Shown here one piece after another: positions 5,870 to 64,000 of a stretch of 64,000 nt of DNA. How positions within the stretch are numbered: the first letter of the stretch is position 1; every line of letters starts with the position of its first letter. Source of the stretch: a bacterium (GTDB taxonomy: Bacteria; Electryoneota; RPQS01); assembly GCA_036504735.1 (NCBI GenBank), contig DASXUQ010000008.1, positions 1 through 64,000 of the forward strand. Direction: 5' to 3'. The notes beneath the pieces are model-generated. The model had not been told where the DNA came from. It saw only the letters and a list, made by a program, of their open reading frames with translations, and did no database searches. The translations under genes were made by a program, and so were the position numbers.

Positions 5870-6023
5870 GAGAGTCTGCTCGAAACGGTAAGGGACGGGA
5901 GCATGAACAAACGGGCTGTGGTGTGGAGTTCAGCGCAATCCACACAAATCTATTACAGGGCGCAGAGGAGTGTAGTTCCCGCTTGGCAGTGCGCGGAAAG
6001 ATAGAGCAGGAGAGAGGTAGGAA

Positions 6024-6052
6024 CAAAAGCGGGCGGATCTTTCGATCCGCCC
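6024..6052 (-). terminator. Rho-independent terminator
   Basis: Read leftward, GGGCGGATC pairs with GATCCGCCC (arms 6031-6039 and 6044-6052) and is followed by GCTTTTGTT. It lies 28 bases beyond the stop of the 6080-7420 gene. A similar GGCGGATCT hairpin occurs at 12187-12205. Confidence 0.85.
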
Positions 6053-6079
6053 GTCAAATAACATCGGCTGTGGTGTCGA

Positions 6080-7420
6080 TCAAAATTTCAGATGTGCGCC
6101 GATTCCCGGAACGAGTCTCACCTTAGCAGCGGAAGACAGACTGGACATAGGCTGCGGCGCTACGCGCAAATCCCAGGATGAGGTCTTCTTGTCCGCGTGT
6201 GGTGCAAAAGCTTTGTAAGTAAGCCAGAAGCCTGCGGTACCACCCAGAGCCGCCAGTCCAAGATAAGCCTTCTCGTCGCCCTTACCGCGCTTGGCGATGT
6301 AAGCAATACCCGCACCGGTGAGCGCGCCGCCCAGTTCGCCCAAAGCAATCAGGGATCCTTGCCCTTCGGTGAAACTGGTGTGGCGGGTCAGCGAGTGGCC
6401 GGCGGCGAATCCGGCGACGGATCCCAGCATAGAGGTTACGAGAAATACGTCGCCGTCGGTGTCGAGCGTGCCGAGCATATCAGCGACGGCAAACATGACT
6501 CCTCCGCCCAGTATGGTGACAGACTCCAGCACGTGAGCATCGCCCTTGGTGTAGGGATGTACATCGTACATCAGTTTGCCCATCAGGATTCCTGCTCCGT
6601 GCGCCGCCAGTATGGTGCCGACGGCTTCACGCTGATGACTGCCGTCATAAAAGCGCGCGAGTTGCGCCGCGCCGGCACCGAAGGCAAACCCGTAGTCTCC
6701 GCCGAAAGCCAGGAGCGCCGCCTGACCGGAGGTGATGTTGAACTTGTCCGCCACCGACAGCATCGTCAGCATCTCCGCCACGCTGACCACGACCCCGGAA
6801 GCATACAATCCGCGTGTGTCCACGTTCTTGCCGCTAATGGCAAGATCCAGCAGCATGCCGTGGGCAATGCCGCGCGAGCCGCCGTACCAGGCCATGCTGG
6901 CCATGCCGTCGGTGATCTTTGAATTCCGCGTGGTCAGATAGGGAACGAAATATCCCGCACTGCCGATCAGCAGATAGCCGGCCACGGCCGACGCGCTACT
7001 GCCGACGTCCATCATCGCAGGCACGGCCCAGCCATAATAGCCGAGAGCCAGTGTTGTCGTTCCCCGCACGAACTGCGCACGGCCATCCTGATTCAAGCCG
7101 TAGTTGGGCGCGAACTTCAGCAGATTGTCCCCGACCTGACGGCGCAGGGTTGCCACACCATCGGCAGTCAACGGCTTGCGTTCACGGATGACCTGACTGT
7201 CTGGCCGGTAGAGCACTTCGAGCACATACAGCGTATCCGAAAGCCGAAACAGCCGGGCCTCGCGGAAGTTGGAGTACTCACCAAAGAGTTGCAGCCGCTT
7301 CTGCAAATCCGCCGTGATGCTCTCCACTTTGCCCGTGGAATCCAGCGGCACCAGAGCATCCTGAGCGTGGGCACAGGTGAAGAGGCAGAAGAGGGCGATG
7401 GTCAAAATGAACGGCTTCAT
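6080..7420 (-). CDS. Hypothetical multi-pass membrane protein with signal peptide
   Basis: The 446-residue product is not recognised. It begins with a signal peptide (MKPFILTIALFCLFTCAHAQD). A soluble part of about 100 residues follows (SITADLQKRLQLFGEYSNFREARLF...), then about ten Gly/Ala-rich hydrophobic stretches from residue 120 to 400, such as TLALGYYGWAVPAMMDVGSSASAVAGYLLIG. The last 40 residues (SWDLRVAPQPMS...GIGAHLKF) end in a short strand. Cleavage of the signal and the small-residue helices suggest an envelope protein. GAGG lies upstream of the start. It stands alone, with a terminator behind it and a repeat region ahead. Confidence 0.7.
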   Translation of the reverse strand: MKPFILTIALFCLFTCAHAQDALVPLDSTGKVESITADLQKRLQLFGEYSNFREARLFRLSDTLYVLEVLYRPDSQVIRERKPLTADGVATLRRQVGDNLLKFAPNYGLNQDGRAQFVRGTTTLALGYYGWAVPAMMDVGSSASAVAGYLLIGSAGYFVPYLTTRNSKITDGMASMAWYGGSRGIAHGMLLDLAISGKNVDTRGLYASGVVVSVAEMLTMLSVADKFNITSGQAALLAFGGDYGFAFGAGAAQLARFYDGSHQREAVGTILAAHGAGILMGKLMYDVHPYTKGDAHVLESVTILGGGVMFAVADMLGTLDTDGDVFLVTSMLGSVAGFAAGHSLTRHTSFTEGQGSLIALGELGGALTGAGIAYIAKRGKGDEKAYLGLAALGGTAGFWLTYKAFAPHADKKTSSWDLRVAPQPMSSLSSAAKVRLVPGIGAHLKF

Positions 7421-60075: not shown

Positions 60076-61449
60076 ATGAAGGTCAAATTGTTAGTTTTTG
60101 CGGCAGCCCTGCTCGCGCTGACGTCGCTCAGCTTCGCGCAGAACTTCGTCGCTTGTTTTTACTACGACGGAAGTCAGCTCACCGCCAATTGTGACGGCAC
60201 CGGCGGCGCGCTTCCCGACGGTACCCCCATGGTCATCTATTACGACGCTAACAGCAACGGCCCGGACGCTGCTGATCAGCCGGCTACTGTTTGCTCCAAT
60301 CCGCCCGACTGCGCCGATGGCCCCGCCGGTACGGTTAACTTCAATACGTTCGTTATCAACAGCGCTGAAGTGGGTCTTGAGCCCGGCCAGTTCCTGAGCG
60401 AGCCGTGCTTCACCAGTTCGGGCATCACCCCTTCGCCGTCCCGTTACTACATCAAGCTCACGGCTGCCAACGGCTTGGTTTGGATGAGCCCGGTGTTCAC
60501 GCTTGCGGTTGGTCCGCAGGACGTCTATTGCGGCCCCTGGACCTGCACCCCTCCTCCTCCCCCGACCTGCACCCCGATCCCCGACACCCGCGCCGTGACG
60601 TTCGCCCCGGTGTCCGGTAATGTTCAGGATCAGGCTGCCTGCATCACCCTGTGCCACGCCTATCCGACCGTGACCGTGTGTGTTGGCCCGACGCTGTTTG
60701 GCCGCCTGCCGGAAGTTGTCGCCAGCTCGAACTGCCAGTGCGACCCGCATCAGGCCGCTGGCTACACGTTTGACGGCAGCATGGCCGGCCCGTGGGTTTG
60801 GAATGCCGCCACGATGAGCTATTGCCAGCAGATCGTCCTCGGCCCCAACGGCACCGAAGGCTGCGTTGAGCTGCATTTTGATTACATCTTGGCCGCCCGT
60901 GTCACCGACGTGCAGATTCTCCCGCGTGACAATTCGGTCAGCGTCAGCTTCAAGACGGCTTCCGAAACCAACATGGCCCGTTACGAAGTTCGCCGCAATG
61001 GCAACGTGGTCGCCCGCCTGGATGCCAACAATGGCTCCACCGAGCATAGCTACAGCTACACCGACAACAGCGCTGCCAATGGCACCACCTACACCTACGA
61101 ACTGGTGTCCGTGAGCGTTGACGGTTCGACCAACCTCGAAGCCACCCAGGCTGTGACGCCGGATCAGAACCACGCGCTGGTGACCGAGTACGCTCTGCAC
61201 CAGAACTTCCCGAACCCCTTCAACCCGACGACCTCGATTCGGTTTGACCTGGTCGAGAACAACTTCGTCAGCCTGAAGATCTACAATGCCAACGGCCAGG
61301 AAGTGTCGACGATCGTCAATGGCAACCGCCAGGCGGGTGTCAATGTCGTCAACTTCGACGCCACCAACCTGACCAGCGGCCTGTATTTCTACACCGTGAA
61401 GGTCGGCAATGTTTACAGCGCCACGAAGAAGATGCTTCTGGTGAAGTAA
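60076..61449 (+). CDS. Secreted Cys-containing protein with T9SS sorting domain
   Basis: The 457-residue protein has a signal peptide (MKVKLLVFAAALLALTSLSFAQ). Its N-terminal domain (YYDANSNGPDAADQ ... NFNTFVINS ... GQFLSEPCFTSSGITPSPSRYYIKL ... WMSPVFTLAVGPQDVYCGPWTC) is shared with 19062 and 61693. A Cys-rich middle part, a fibronectin-like domain (VTDVQILPRDNSVSVSFKTASETNMARYEVRRNGNVV) and the tail LHQNFPNPFNPTTSI ... KKMLLVK follow. AAGGAG lies upstream. It follows 59159 by 65 bases and may be in its operon. Confidence 0.87.
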   Translation: MKVKLLVFAAALLALTSLSFAQNFVACFYYDGSQLTANCDGTGGALPDGTPMVIYYDANSNGPDAADQPATVCSNPPDCADGPAGTVNFNTFVINSAEVGLEPGQFLSEPCFTSSGITPSPSRYYIKLTAANGLVWMSPVFTLAVGPQDVYCGPWTCTPPPPPTCTPIPDTRAVTFAPVSGNVQDQAACITLCHAYPTVTVCVGPTLFGRLPEVVASSNCQCDPHQAAGYTFDGSMAGPWVWNAATMSYCQQIVLGPNGTEGCVELHFDYILAARVTDVQILPRDNSVSVSFKTASETNMARYEVRRNGNVVARLDANNGSTEHSYSYTDNSAANGTTYTYELVSVSVDGSTNLEATQAVTPDQNHALVTEYALHQNFPNPFNPTTSIRFDLVENNFVSLKIYNANGQEVSTIVNGNRQAGVNVVNFDATNLTSGLYFYTVKVGNVYSATKKMLLVK

Positions 61450-61591: not shown

Positions 61592-61692
61592 TTTAGTAAT
61601 GGGATATGATGACAAGTGCCCCGGCGCGGATCCCGTCCCGGTTGGCACAAACGTTGCAGCGTTCTGTGTGGTTAAAACACAGGAAGAGGAAG

Positions 61693-62241
61693 ATGATAAT
61701 GGTTCGCTGGTTTGCTGGCATAGCCACACTGCTTTTACTGCTGACGGTCACTGCGTCCGCACAACCTTTCTCCGCCACGTGGATCTACATTTCGGACGGC
61801 GGAAATGCCGCGCTGACGACCGCGTGTCCGCCGCAAGGGACCACTCCGATCCCCGACGGACGAATTGTCAAGATTTTCTGGGATTCCAACAACAACGGTC
61901 CCGATCTGGTAGACCCGCAACCGCAGGTCTGCATTGATCCCCCCGATTGTATTGATGGCCCTCCCGGATCGGTGAATTACAATCAGTTCCAAATGAATGG
62001 AACGGCTGGAGGTTACGGCGCGGGTTACTTTGTCACGGACAACCCGAACTTTGCCAGCAGCGGTGTTACACCGGATCCTTCACGCTATTATCTGCGAATT
62101 TATCAGCCGGATGGTGTCACCGTGTTGTGGACCAGCCGTGCCTTTACGATTACCACAGGCGCCCAGGAAATCTGGATGCAGCAGAGCGACTGGACCTGCG
62201 GAACCGGACCCCAGTGCGTGGTTCGGGACGAGCACGAATAG
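61693..62241 (+). CDS. Small secreted protein sharing the 60076 N-terminal domain
   Basis: The 182-residue protein has a signal peptide (MIMVRWFAGIATLLLLLTVTASAQ) and then only the domain shared with 19062 and 60076: FWDSNNNGPDLVDPQPQVC, CIDGPPGSVNYNQFQMNG, GYFVTDNPNFASSGVTPDPSRYYLRIYQPDGVTVLWTSRAFTITTGAQEIWMQQSDWTC. It has no sorting tail. It could be a free-standing version of the domain or the remnant of a longer protein. AGAGG precedes the start. Confidence 0.78.
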   Translation: MIMVRWFAGIATLLLLLTVTASAQPFSATWIYISDGGNAALTTACPPQGTTPIPDGRIVKIFWDSNNNGPDLVDPQPQVCIDPPDCIDGPPGSVNYNQFQMNGTAGGYGAGYFVTDNPNFASSGVTPDPSRYYLRIYQPDGVTVLWTSRAFTITTGAQEIWMQQSDWTCGTGPQCVVRDEHE

Positions 62242-62552
62242 TTCGCGTTTGTGGCCTTAACAGCATATGAGACGTCTGCGAGGCGCATCATCCGGTGCGC
62301 CTTTTTCTTCAGACGCGGCGAGGAATCGTCAGAAACGGGTGGGACTGAAGCGGAATTCGCGAGTGGAAGGCCGAATTATGAATCGGATACTATGGATCCG
62401 GTTTGACGGATGATCTTGTCAGCGCACAATTTCCGAAGTGTCAAGACAAGGTCAGGCCTTGCAATTTTGAGGGAAACTTGGTACCTTTTCTTCCGTATAA
62501 AGACTGAGTCTTTATTCGACATTAGAATACACACACAAGGCGTGGAAAGGCA
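62242..62552. other. Intergenic before the selenoprotein gene
   Basis: Beyond the terminator at 62281-62309, a palindrome ATAAAGAC/GTCTTTAT (62497-62515, three-base centre) lies about 37 bases before the next start and could be an operator. No gene and no convincing promoter were found. Confidence 0.45.
62281..62309 (+). terminator. Terminator of the 61693 gene
   Basis: AGGCGCA (62281-62287) pairs with TGCGCCT (62296-62302), followed by TTTTCTT. Confidence 0.85.
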
Positions 62553-63599
62553 ATGCAGAAACGATTAATTGCAGTGCTGGCTGTGGTGGTGGCGATGACC
62601 GGCATGTTCATCACCAACGGCTGCGAGCGGGCCAAAGCGCAGGGCAAGCTGCAGATCATGTACAGCGGCAACATTCGGGGAAACGTCGTCCCCTGCGGTT
62701 GACACGACAAAAAAGGTGGAGTGGCCCGGTGGGCTGCTTTTATCAACCGGCAGAAGAATCCCGACGCCTCATGGCTGACGGTGGACGCCGGAGACTATGT
62801 GGATCGCGGTGGGAATGGCGGATGCACGAACAAGTGCCAGTTCATGGTGACCAGCTATAAGGATCTCCATTACGATGTGCTGAACATCGGCAAGCAGGAG
62901 GTCTGGATGGGCTATGACGCGCTGGACTCGCTGATTCGGGCGACCAAGGCCGCCAAGGGCACGCAGTTCGTATCGGCAAACCTGGTGAACGTGAAGACCA
63001 AACGGCCGCTCACGAACCCCACGGTGGTCAAGGATTACGGTCATTTCCGCGTGGGCCTGATCGGCTTGCTGGCGGAGGCGGATTTCCCCAAGGGATCCAC
63101 GCTGCTGGACAGCACGCATCTGGCGGTCACGCCCTACATGGACGCGGCCAAAAAGTATCTGCCGTCTCTGCTCAAGAAGACGGACGCGGTGGTGGTGCTG
63201 GGTGAACTGACCTCAGGTCAGATCGACACGCTGGTGAAGGCCTATCCGGACATCGACGTGGTGATTTCCACCGGTGCGGTCAAGACCGGCGAGGCGCCGT
63301 ACGTCGTGGGCAAGACCCATGTCCTCGGAACAGGCAGCTCGGGCTACAGCGGCCATTATGCCATGCTGGAGTTTAATCCCTCCCGCTCGGACAGCGTGGG
63401 CTTTACCCAGTATCAGGATCAGTTGACGGAAACGTACGAAGAAAAGGGCCTGTGGGCGGACAAGATCGCCGCTTTCAGCGCCATGCCGGCTGCGCCGGCG
63501 CAGCCGCTGAAGACGCCGAACCCCGCACTGAACACGTTGCCGACCCAGCCGAAGCCGGCGGCACCGACAGGCGTATCTACGAAGCCCAACGCGGGCTGA
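62553..63599 (+). CDS. UshA-like selenoprotein (in-frame TGA read as selenocysteine)
   Basis: The 348-residue frame starts at ATG 62553 (AAAGG upstream) with a lipoprotein signal (MQKRLIAVLAVVVAMTGMFITNGC, lipid Cys24). It reads MYSGNIRGNVVPCGUHDKKGGVARWAAFINRQ, with TGA at 62700-62702 as residue 50. The next gene has PCGCHVSKGGVARW at this place, aligned without gaps, so the TGA stands for Cys or its selenium analogue. Downstream, LTVDAGDYVDRGG and VLNIGKQEVWMG resemble the 5'-nucleotidase metallophosphatase fold, but the GNHE metal motif is GKQE, so a redox rather than hydrolytic role is inferred. Ordinary prediction would start at GTG 62721 and lose the signal and the active site. Confidence 0.82.
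62719..62739 (+). promoter_or_regulatory. Candidate bacterial SECIS stem-loop
   Basis: A nine-pair stem (62719-62727 with 62731-62739, including G-U pairs) closes a GGU loop (62728-62730). The loop G lies 26 bases after the TGA, inside the spacing usual for bacterial selenocysteine insertion elements. The stem is also present in the Cys paralogue. Confidence 0.6.
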
Positions 63600-63668: not shown

Positions 63669-63694
63669 ACCTCTCCCGGTTCGCCGGGAGAGGT
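63669..63694 (+). terminator. Hairpin with UUCG loop between the tandem genes
   Basis: ACCTCTCCCGG (63669-63679) pairs with CCGGGAGAGGT (63684-63694) around TTCG. No T-run follows, so it may only partly terminate or may stabilise the upstream message. Confidence 0.6.
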
Positions 63695-63736
63695 CTTGCA
63701 CAGAATCGGATCAGGAATTCAATGAAAGGGATCGTC

Positions 63737-64000
63737 ATGCGAAAGTGTTGGACAATGCTGGGAGCGGCGGCGCTGTTGTTGATCGCCGCCGCTTTTCTTG
63801 CGTCATGCAGCAGCCGGAGTGAAGCACAGGGCAAGCTGCAAGTCATGTACAGCGGCAACATCCGGGGCAATGTCTCACCGTGTGGTTGCCATGTTTCCAA
63901 GGGCGGCGTGGCCCGGTGGGCTGCTTTTATCAACCGGCAGAAGAATCCCGACGCCTCGTGGCTGACGGTGGACGCCGGAGACTATGTGGATCGCGCGGGG
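63737..64000 (+). CDS. UshA-like lipoprotein, Cys version (partial at window end)
   Basis: The first 88 codons of a paralogue of the preceding gene are present and the frame is open at the window edge. The lipoprotein signal (MRKCWTMLGAAALLLIAAAFLASC) is followed by MYSGNIRGNVSPCGCHVSKGGVARWAAFINRQKNPDASWLTVDAGDYVDRAG. Where the neighbour has TGA this gene has TGC (63887-63889, Cys51). Bases 63908-63995 match 62721-62808 at 87 of 88 positions, including silent sites, while the signal regions differ. An in-frame ATG at 63722 is an alternative start. Confidence 0.87.
   Translation, partial: MRKCWTMLGAAALLLIAAAFLASCSSRSEAQGKLQVMYSGNIRGNVSPCGCHVSKGGVARWAAFINRQKNPDASWLTVDAGDYVDRAG

Follow-up and report, generated by a model that had tools for sequence, protein, structure and literature searches.

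Genes for UshA-like candidate selenoproteins in a Sec/Cys array of an Electryoneota bacterium

Gene A, which lies near the end of the DNA stretch analysed here (64,000 nucleotides; hereafter the window), almost certainly encodes a selenoprotein, in that its single internal UGA appears to be read as selenocysteine (Sec). On comparative sequence evidence, we hold with very high confidence that this gene directs Sec decoding of an exported protein with an UshA-type fold. The window corresponds to contig C8:1-64000 of a 4.16-Mb genome (98% complete), which was searched piecewise. Gene A stands at the head of an array of paralogues (Table 1) and within a gene neighbourhood that is largely shared by its relatives.

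Table 1. Features of the array and its surroundings (window positions unless contig C8 or locus L018 is named)
Feature	Position	Strand	Remarks
Secreted protein, type IX C-terminal sorting domain	60076..61449	+	PF18962 Por_Secre_tail 36.4 bits, cut-off 27
Small secreted five-cysteine protein	61606..62241	+	Adjoins A; C-terminus WTCG..GPQC.V.DE.E
Gene A, UshA-like selenoprotein (almost certain)	62553..63599	+	348 residues plus stop; apparent lipoprotein signal ..ITNG-C24
Putative Sec-UGA codon of gene A	62700..62702	+	Residue 50; CxU motif Cys48-Gly49-Sec50
Predicted bSECIS hairpin of gene A	62720..62738	+	8-bp stem; GGU apical loop 62728-62730; UGA-loop spacing 25 nt
Gene B, 5' part, Cys paralogue PCGC-H	63722..64000	+	Runs on to C8:64767; frameshifted near C8:64288
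Gene C, second UshA-like Sec gene	C8:64811-65962 (L018 4811-5962)		ELEPCG-U-HAKKGG; own SECIS hairpin; just past window end
Gene D, conserved secreted protein	L018 about 5979-6638		Directly 3' of C in relatives; motif H.HGH.IQ.I.DGGN..QDPP..DG.PGGDDSLA.GNFN

Selenocysteine decoding of gene A

The frame at 62553-63599 contains exactly one internal TGA, at 62700-62702, just as the first-pass annotation of this DNA had reported, and it ends in a terminal TGA at 63597-63599. Across the internal codon the product reads NIRGNVVPCG-U-HDKKGGVARWAAF (also given as NIRGNVVPCG-U-HDKKGGVARW), with PCG-U-H at residues 47-51. The same annotation had pointed to a lipoprotein signal at the start of this frame and to PCGC-H at the aligned codon of the adjoining gene. 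The latter is indeed present in gene B, and the former is plausible, since a [G/S]-C pair follows the signal peptide in the alignment of all eleven A genes. Its further claim, that A and B differ mainly at silent positions on both sides of the TGA, holds close to the codon and behind it (dN/dS of 0.09 over the 19 preceding and 0.20 over the 266 following codons), but not in the signal peptide (over the whole stretch 5' of the TGA, 23 codons carry replacements and 10 carry silent changes, with 15 unchanged). Besides, genes like A would probably be truncated or mis-started by standard annotation, because the 292-residue frame downstream of the UGA opens with a GTG.

Among the 118 genomes searched, we found gene A encoded in eleven, namely the window's own, nine of the same family and one more of the same order. 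The orthologous proteins are 50-61% identical to that of the window within the family and 34% identical in the outer member, and all eleven genes have a TGA at the homologous codon. Downstream of it, dN/dS values of 0.07-0.15 between orthologues indicate purifying selection. When gene C is included, TGA occupies the aligned codon in each of the 21 genes; the B paralogues have TGC or TGT there, and a further copy, X, has a Cys. That the TGA of gene A might be a true stop in a pseudogene, or a sequencing error for TGC or TGT, could be argued from the TGC of the neighbouring copy and from the frameshift in gene B, which indicates that local errors or decay do occur in this array. Yet the TGA recurs in separate assemblies (11/11 A and 10/10 C genes), purifying selection persists 3' of it, conservation of the hairpin described below extends to synonymous sites and the genome possesses Sec machinery. 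We consider an error or a pseudogene vanishingly improbable and, given 21 TGAs in separate genes and genomes together with purifying selection, ruled out. Reading gene A as a selenoprotein gene, as the first-pass annotation had proposed, is thus supported by the conserved TGA, the machinery and the hairpin.

As to the machinery, selA (524 bits), selB (362), selD (345) and tRNA-Sec (56.2), whose absence the first-pass annotation would have held against its proposal, are all present and score above the curated cut-offs. The selA and selB genes lie side by side at C5:152-160 kb, tRNA-Sec with its TCA anticodon (ARAGORN) at C5:141 kb and selD at C5:630 kb. Both selA and selB are common across the phylum. 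G006 (88% complete, 160 contigs) is the sole genome among the eleven with gene A in which neither selA nor selB was seen, and its sister G009 has both. SelD of the window's genome appears to be a selenoprotein itself, with a TGA in CAG-U-ASK (L021 4635-4637, minus strand, C5).

Published limits for bSECIS hairpins comprise a loop of 3-9 nt with G in the first two loop positions, a stem of 4-16 bp, a UGA-loop spacing of 16-37 nt and an MFE of at most -7.5 kcal/mol (PMC13188914). The gene A hairpin falls within every one of them (3-nt GGU loop, 8 bp, 25 nt, -14.3 kcal/mol). In all 21 Sec genes an 8-bp hairpin with a GGN apical loop starts 20 bases past the T of the UGA. Its inner pairs GCCC/GGGC are retained throughout (21/21, with one C-G to U-G change), and the outer pairs covary (G-C with A-U; G-C, C-G, U-A). 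The proportion of paired cells in the hairpin alignment is 94.6%, compared with 31-58% once the partner strand is shifted out of register, and none of 500 shuffles reached the covariation score. In addition, the loop arginine is encoded by CGG in 21 of 21 cases, a codon that accounts for 28% of the arginine codons in these genes. The hairpin is also kept in four Sec relatives from other lineages, one of which (L054) has U-A in place of C-G at one stem pair. Altogether, the four inner pairs occur in 25/25 Sec genes versus 1/12 Cys homologues. This comparative evidence strongly indicates that SelB and tRNA-Sec decode the UGA of gene A as Sec with the aid of the hairpin at 62720-62738.

Paralogues and the origin of the Cys copies

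The first-pass annotation had described a tandem Sec/Cys pair. Sec gene A does stand beside Cys gene B, but a second Sec gene, C (PCGU-H), follows B, so that the actual array is Sec-Cys(frameshifted)-Sec. Gene C occurs in ten of the eleven gene A genomes, has PCGU in all ten and adjoins A in nine; in G008 it is located on a separate short contig. With an identity of only 26%, A and C are old paralogues, in both of which Sec has been kept. The aforementioned X is the fourth copy of the window's genome (C5:553512) and carries GCGC, without Sec.

Gene B starts about 120 bases 3' of A, with an ATG at 63722 or 63740. A one-base deletion near C8:64288 (L018 about 4288), outside the window, shifts its frame in the assembly, so gene B is either broken or misassembled, through real decay or an assembly error. 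Its identity to A reaches 97-98% in stretches of the middle and drops to about 50-80% at the ends, a pattern resembling a mosaic left by gene conversion. Gene B of the window's genome, whose codon is TGC, is the sole Cys homologue with the four inner hairpin pairs, and its long tracts of identity with A make it look like a recently converted copy that carries a relic SECIS.

Cys copies of the B type are also present in G007 and G008, and G003 has a B-type fragment that does not include the Sec/Cys site. In the whole-gene tree, the B genes nest among the Sec genes in three places, and the well-supported branches force three changes. An arrangement with one Cys clade was rejected when the main part of the gene was tested (p-AU 0.0003), whereas the N-terminal 85 columns alone did not reject it (p-AU 0.057); a single origin of the Cys copies is therefore rejected for the former and not for the latter, short part. 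Accordingly, either Sec changed to Cys on more than one occasion, or gene conversion overwrote an old Cys copy several times. The second account, in which gene B would be one ancient Cys paralogue overwritten time and again by A, is a live possibility, if one that we lean against. It draws on the A/B mosaic of the window's genome, on the N-terminal columns just mentioned and on the residues V-S-K after the Cys that G000B and G007B have in common; it has to contend with the rejection of one Cys clade over the remaining gene, with the three forced changes and with G007B, which groups with its own genus even in the N-terminal part. The position of G007B, which falls within its own group for either part of the gene, makes at least two events likely for the Cys copies.

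Replacement of Sec by Cys in bacteria is rare and has been documented mainly for FdhA and SelD (PMC13188914, a 2026 review). The B paralogues, which nest among Sec genes, seem to add to these instances. In total, 21 Sec members of this short variant come from a single order. Some have a Cys paralogue as neighbour, which allows the two versions of one protein, with Sec and with Cys, to be compared within the same cluster.

Fold, family and possible chemistry

A profile of 31 homologues matched a solved 5'-nucleotidase with E = 1.6e-24 and SoxB with E of about 1e-14. The predicted structure of the gene A product (pLDDT 84, pTM 0.81) retrieved the same proteins in Foldseek (5'-nucleotidase, E = 1.7e-17; SoxB, 4e-16; TM-score 0.6-0.68 on the query). 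Profile and model thus assign to the gene A product the N-terminal domain fold seen in 5'-nucleotidase and SoxB. Gene A shares the fold and order of this domain with 5'-nucleotidase/UshA, 2',3'-cyclic nucleotidase and SoxB. Unlike them, however, it has lost most metal ligands, lacks the C-terminal substrate domain and has the CGU motif inserted after motif I. Compared with 3ivd, DLH has become NIR, GNHE has become GKQE and GHAH has become STGAV. Where the dinuclear metal site calls for DxH, GD, GNH and GHxH, gene A has NIR, GD, GKQ and STGAV. The motif-I D and H, the asparagine and histidine of GNHE and the GHAH histidines are all replaced in both A and C, and motif II, DAGD in the window's gene A, is DAGN in most A genes. 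No Pfam family matched gene A above its cut-off, and Pfam Metallophos matched none of the 31 homologues.

With most metal-binding residues replaced, the gene A product is probably not a phosphatase, although the copy in the window may bind metal weakly through its retained motif-II aspartate (DAGD). Ten columns are invariant over the 31 homologues: Cys48, Gly49, residue 50 (Sec or Cys), Gly55-Gly56 and five scattered ones. The invariance of Cys48-Gly49-residue 50, alongside the loss of most of the metal motifs, indicates that the conserved centre is the CGU motif and not the metal site. One could nevertheless imagine that the UGA encodes Sec in an enzyme that has remained a metal-dependent nucleotidase or thiosulfohydrolase and uses Sec as ligand or nucleophile. 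The fold match to 5'-nucleotidase and SoxB, the presence of SoxB, an enzyme acting on sulfur compounds, among the weaker family matches (34.6 bits), the DAGD of the window's gene A and a Cys relative (G011X) that keeps NDTHG would all fit such an enzyme. The replaced ligands of motif I, GNHE and GHAH in A and C, the DAGN of most A genes and the absence of Metallophos matches count against it, and we consider it unlikely.

Instead, the CGU motif as conserved centre suggests a thiol/selenol redox role. Judging from the motif and the family pattern, we are inclined to favour an extracytoplasmic redox protein with a Cys48-Sec50 centre. The product would be exported, apparently as a lipoprotein, and Cys48-Gly49-Sec50 would most likely form a reversible selenenylsulfide. 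Bacterial Cys/Sec redox selenoproteins (CxU, CxxU, UxxC) likewise have a short redox-type Sec motif and Cys homologues; gene A differs from them in that its scaffold is derived from a hydrolase and is not a thioredoxin fold.

A 2008 study of marine metagenomes reported UshA-like CxU selenoproteins (COG0737; PMC2398784), and a 2026 review lists UshA-like CxU proteins together with a CxxU family 2 (PMC13188914). The first-pass annotation was thus right in pointing to a known PCGC/PCGU UshA-like group, which also exists as a named NCBIfam family, NF041198 (UshA_like_PCGU). Each of the 31 homologues has NF041198 as its best-matching family, and this family shares with gene A the Sec at the PCGU site, the UshA-like N-terminal domain and the sequence of the SECIS hairpin. 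The suggested membership of gene A in this group, in turn, stands as far as relatedness goes but not by score: at 129.6 bits, with a match covering model positions 9-269 of 519, gene A misses the curated cut-off of 275, as do C (96.5) and X (143.5). Three proteins from other lineages score at or just under this cut-off (L042, 294.7; L046, 273.7; L045, 270.8). They have the PCGU site and the hairpin in common with gene A, and their PCGU domain is followed in the same protein by a cytochrome c554-like domain with four CxxCH motifs (PF13435 match). Gene A lacks the C-terminal cytochrome c554 of the long NF041198 members examined. Given the missed cut-off and the missing cytochrome part, we file gene A as a new short, cytochrome-less variant rather than as a member of NF041198. 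L054 is another short Sec form without a cytochrome. NF049981, the UshA-like (seleno)protein family 2, resembles gene A in its broad fold and in a Sec in the N-terminal region, but its motif is CxxU (PMC13188914) and its cut-off 140, whereas gene A has CxU and scores 30.1 bits.

The fused cytochrome c554 of the long relatives speaks for a redox function of that form. If the short form does similar work, its redox partner would have to be a separate protein, speculatively one encoded in the conserved cluster. Gene A might even operate in the manner of the cytochrome-linked NF041198 family, using a cytochrome that a different gene encodes. This would agree with NF041198 being the best family for every homologue and with the PCGU site, hairpin and fused cytochrome of the three long proteins (271-295 bits). 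It sits less well with the wide gap between 129.6 or 96.5 and 275 bits, and scans of five cluster proteins brought up no cytochrome match; such a division of labour strikes us as doubtful.

In contrast to NF041198, the order studied here has two divergent tandem Sec genes and a gene neighbourhood of its own. We did not find previous descriptions of two divergent tandem Sec genes, of a conserved cluster of UshA-like Sec genes with type IX cargo or of Cys duplicates nested within Sec genes, nor did we find a paper that assigns a function to UshA-like selenoproteins.

Gene neighbourhood and type IX secretion

In most relatives, a gene for a type-IX-tailed protein comes first, followed by that for the five-cysteine protein and then by A, (B), C and D; a gene for a second type-IX-tailed protein usually closes the series. 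The neighbour gene at 60076-61449 is conserved in relatives, and its sorting domain, together with a SprA match in the genome, bears out the earlier remark that this lineage possesses a type IX secretion system (T9SS). In the protein encoded at 61606-62241, five cysteines are invariant in 8/8 orthologues. Neither this protein nor that of gene D has a Pfam match. A domain of the five-cysteine protein recurs in the N-terminal part of the type-IX-tailed protein of 60076-61449.

Among the neighbours, the five-cysteine protein is the best, albeit speculative, candidate for a partner of A. Disulfide chemistry on D was considered and set aside, as D has no conserved cysteine. Taking this a step further, A and C might be dedicated selenium-dependent redox enzymes that are built on a dead phosphatase scaffold and treat the cysteines of T9SS-exported surface proteins encoded next to them. 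We regard this as a long shot; if true, it would place selenium chemistry in the service of protein export, in a system whose duplicates repeatedly swap Sec for Cys with the Sec copy being retained. Apart from one incidental paper, we found no literature on selenocysteine together with type IX secretion.

Terminator-like hairpins, identified as pattern matches only, are located 5' of A behind the 61606 gene (62280-62303) and after D (C8:66664-66691). Their positions suggest that A-B-C-D may form a single transcription unit from which the flanking genes are separate. Between A and B, there is an inverted repeat at about 63672-63696, CCTCTCCCGG-TTCG-CCGGGAGAGG, with no T-run after it, which is possibly a regulatory or processing hairpin.
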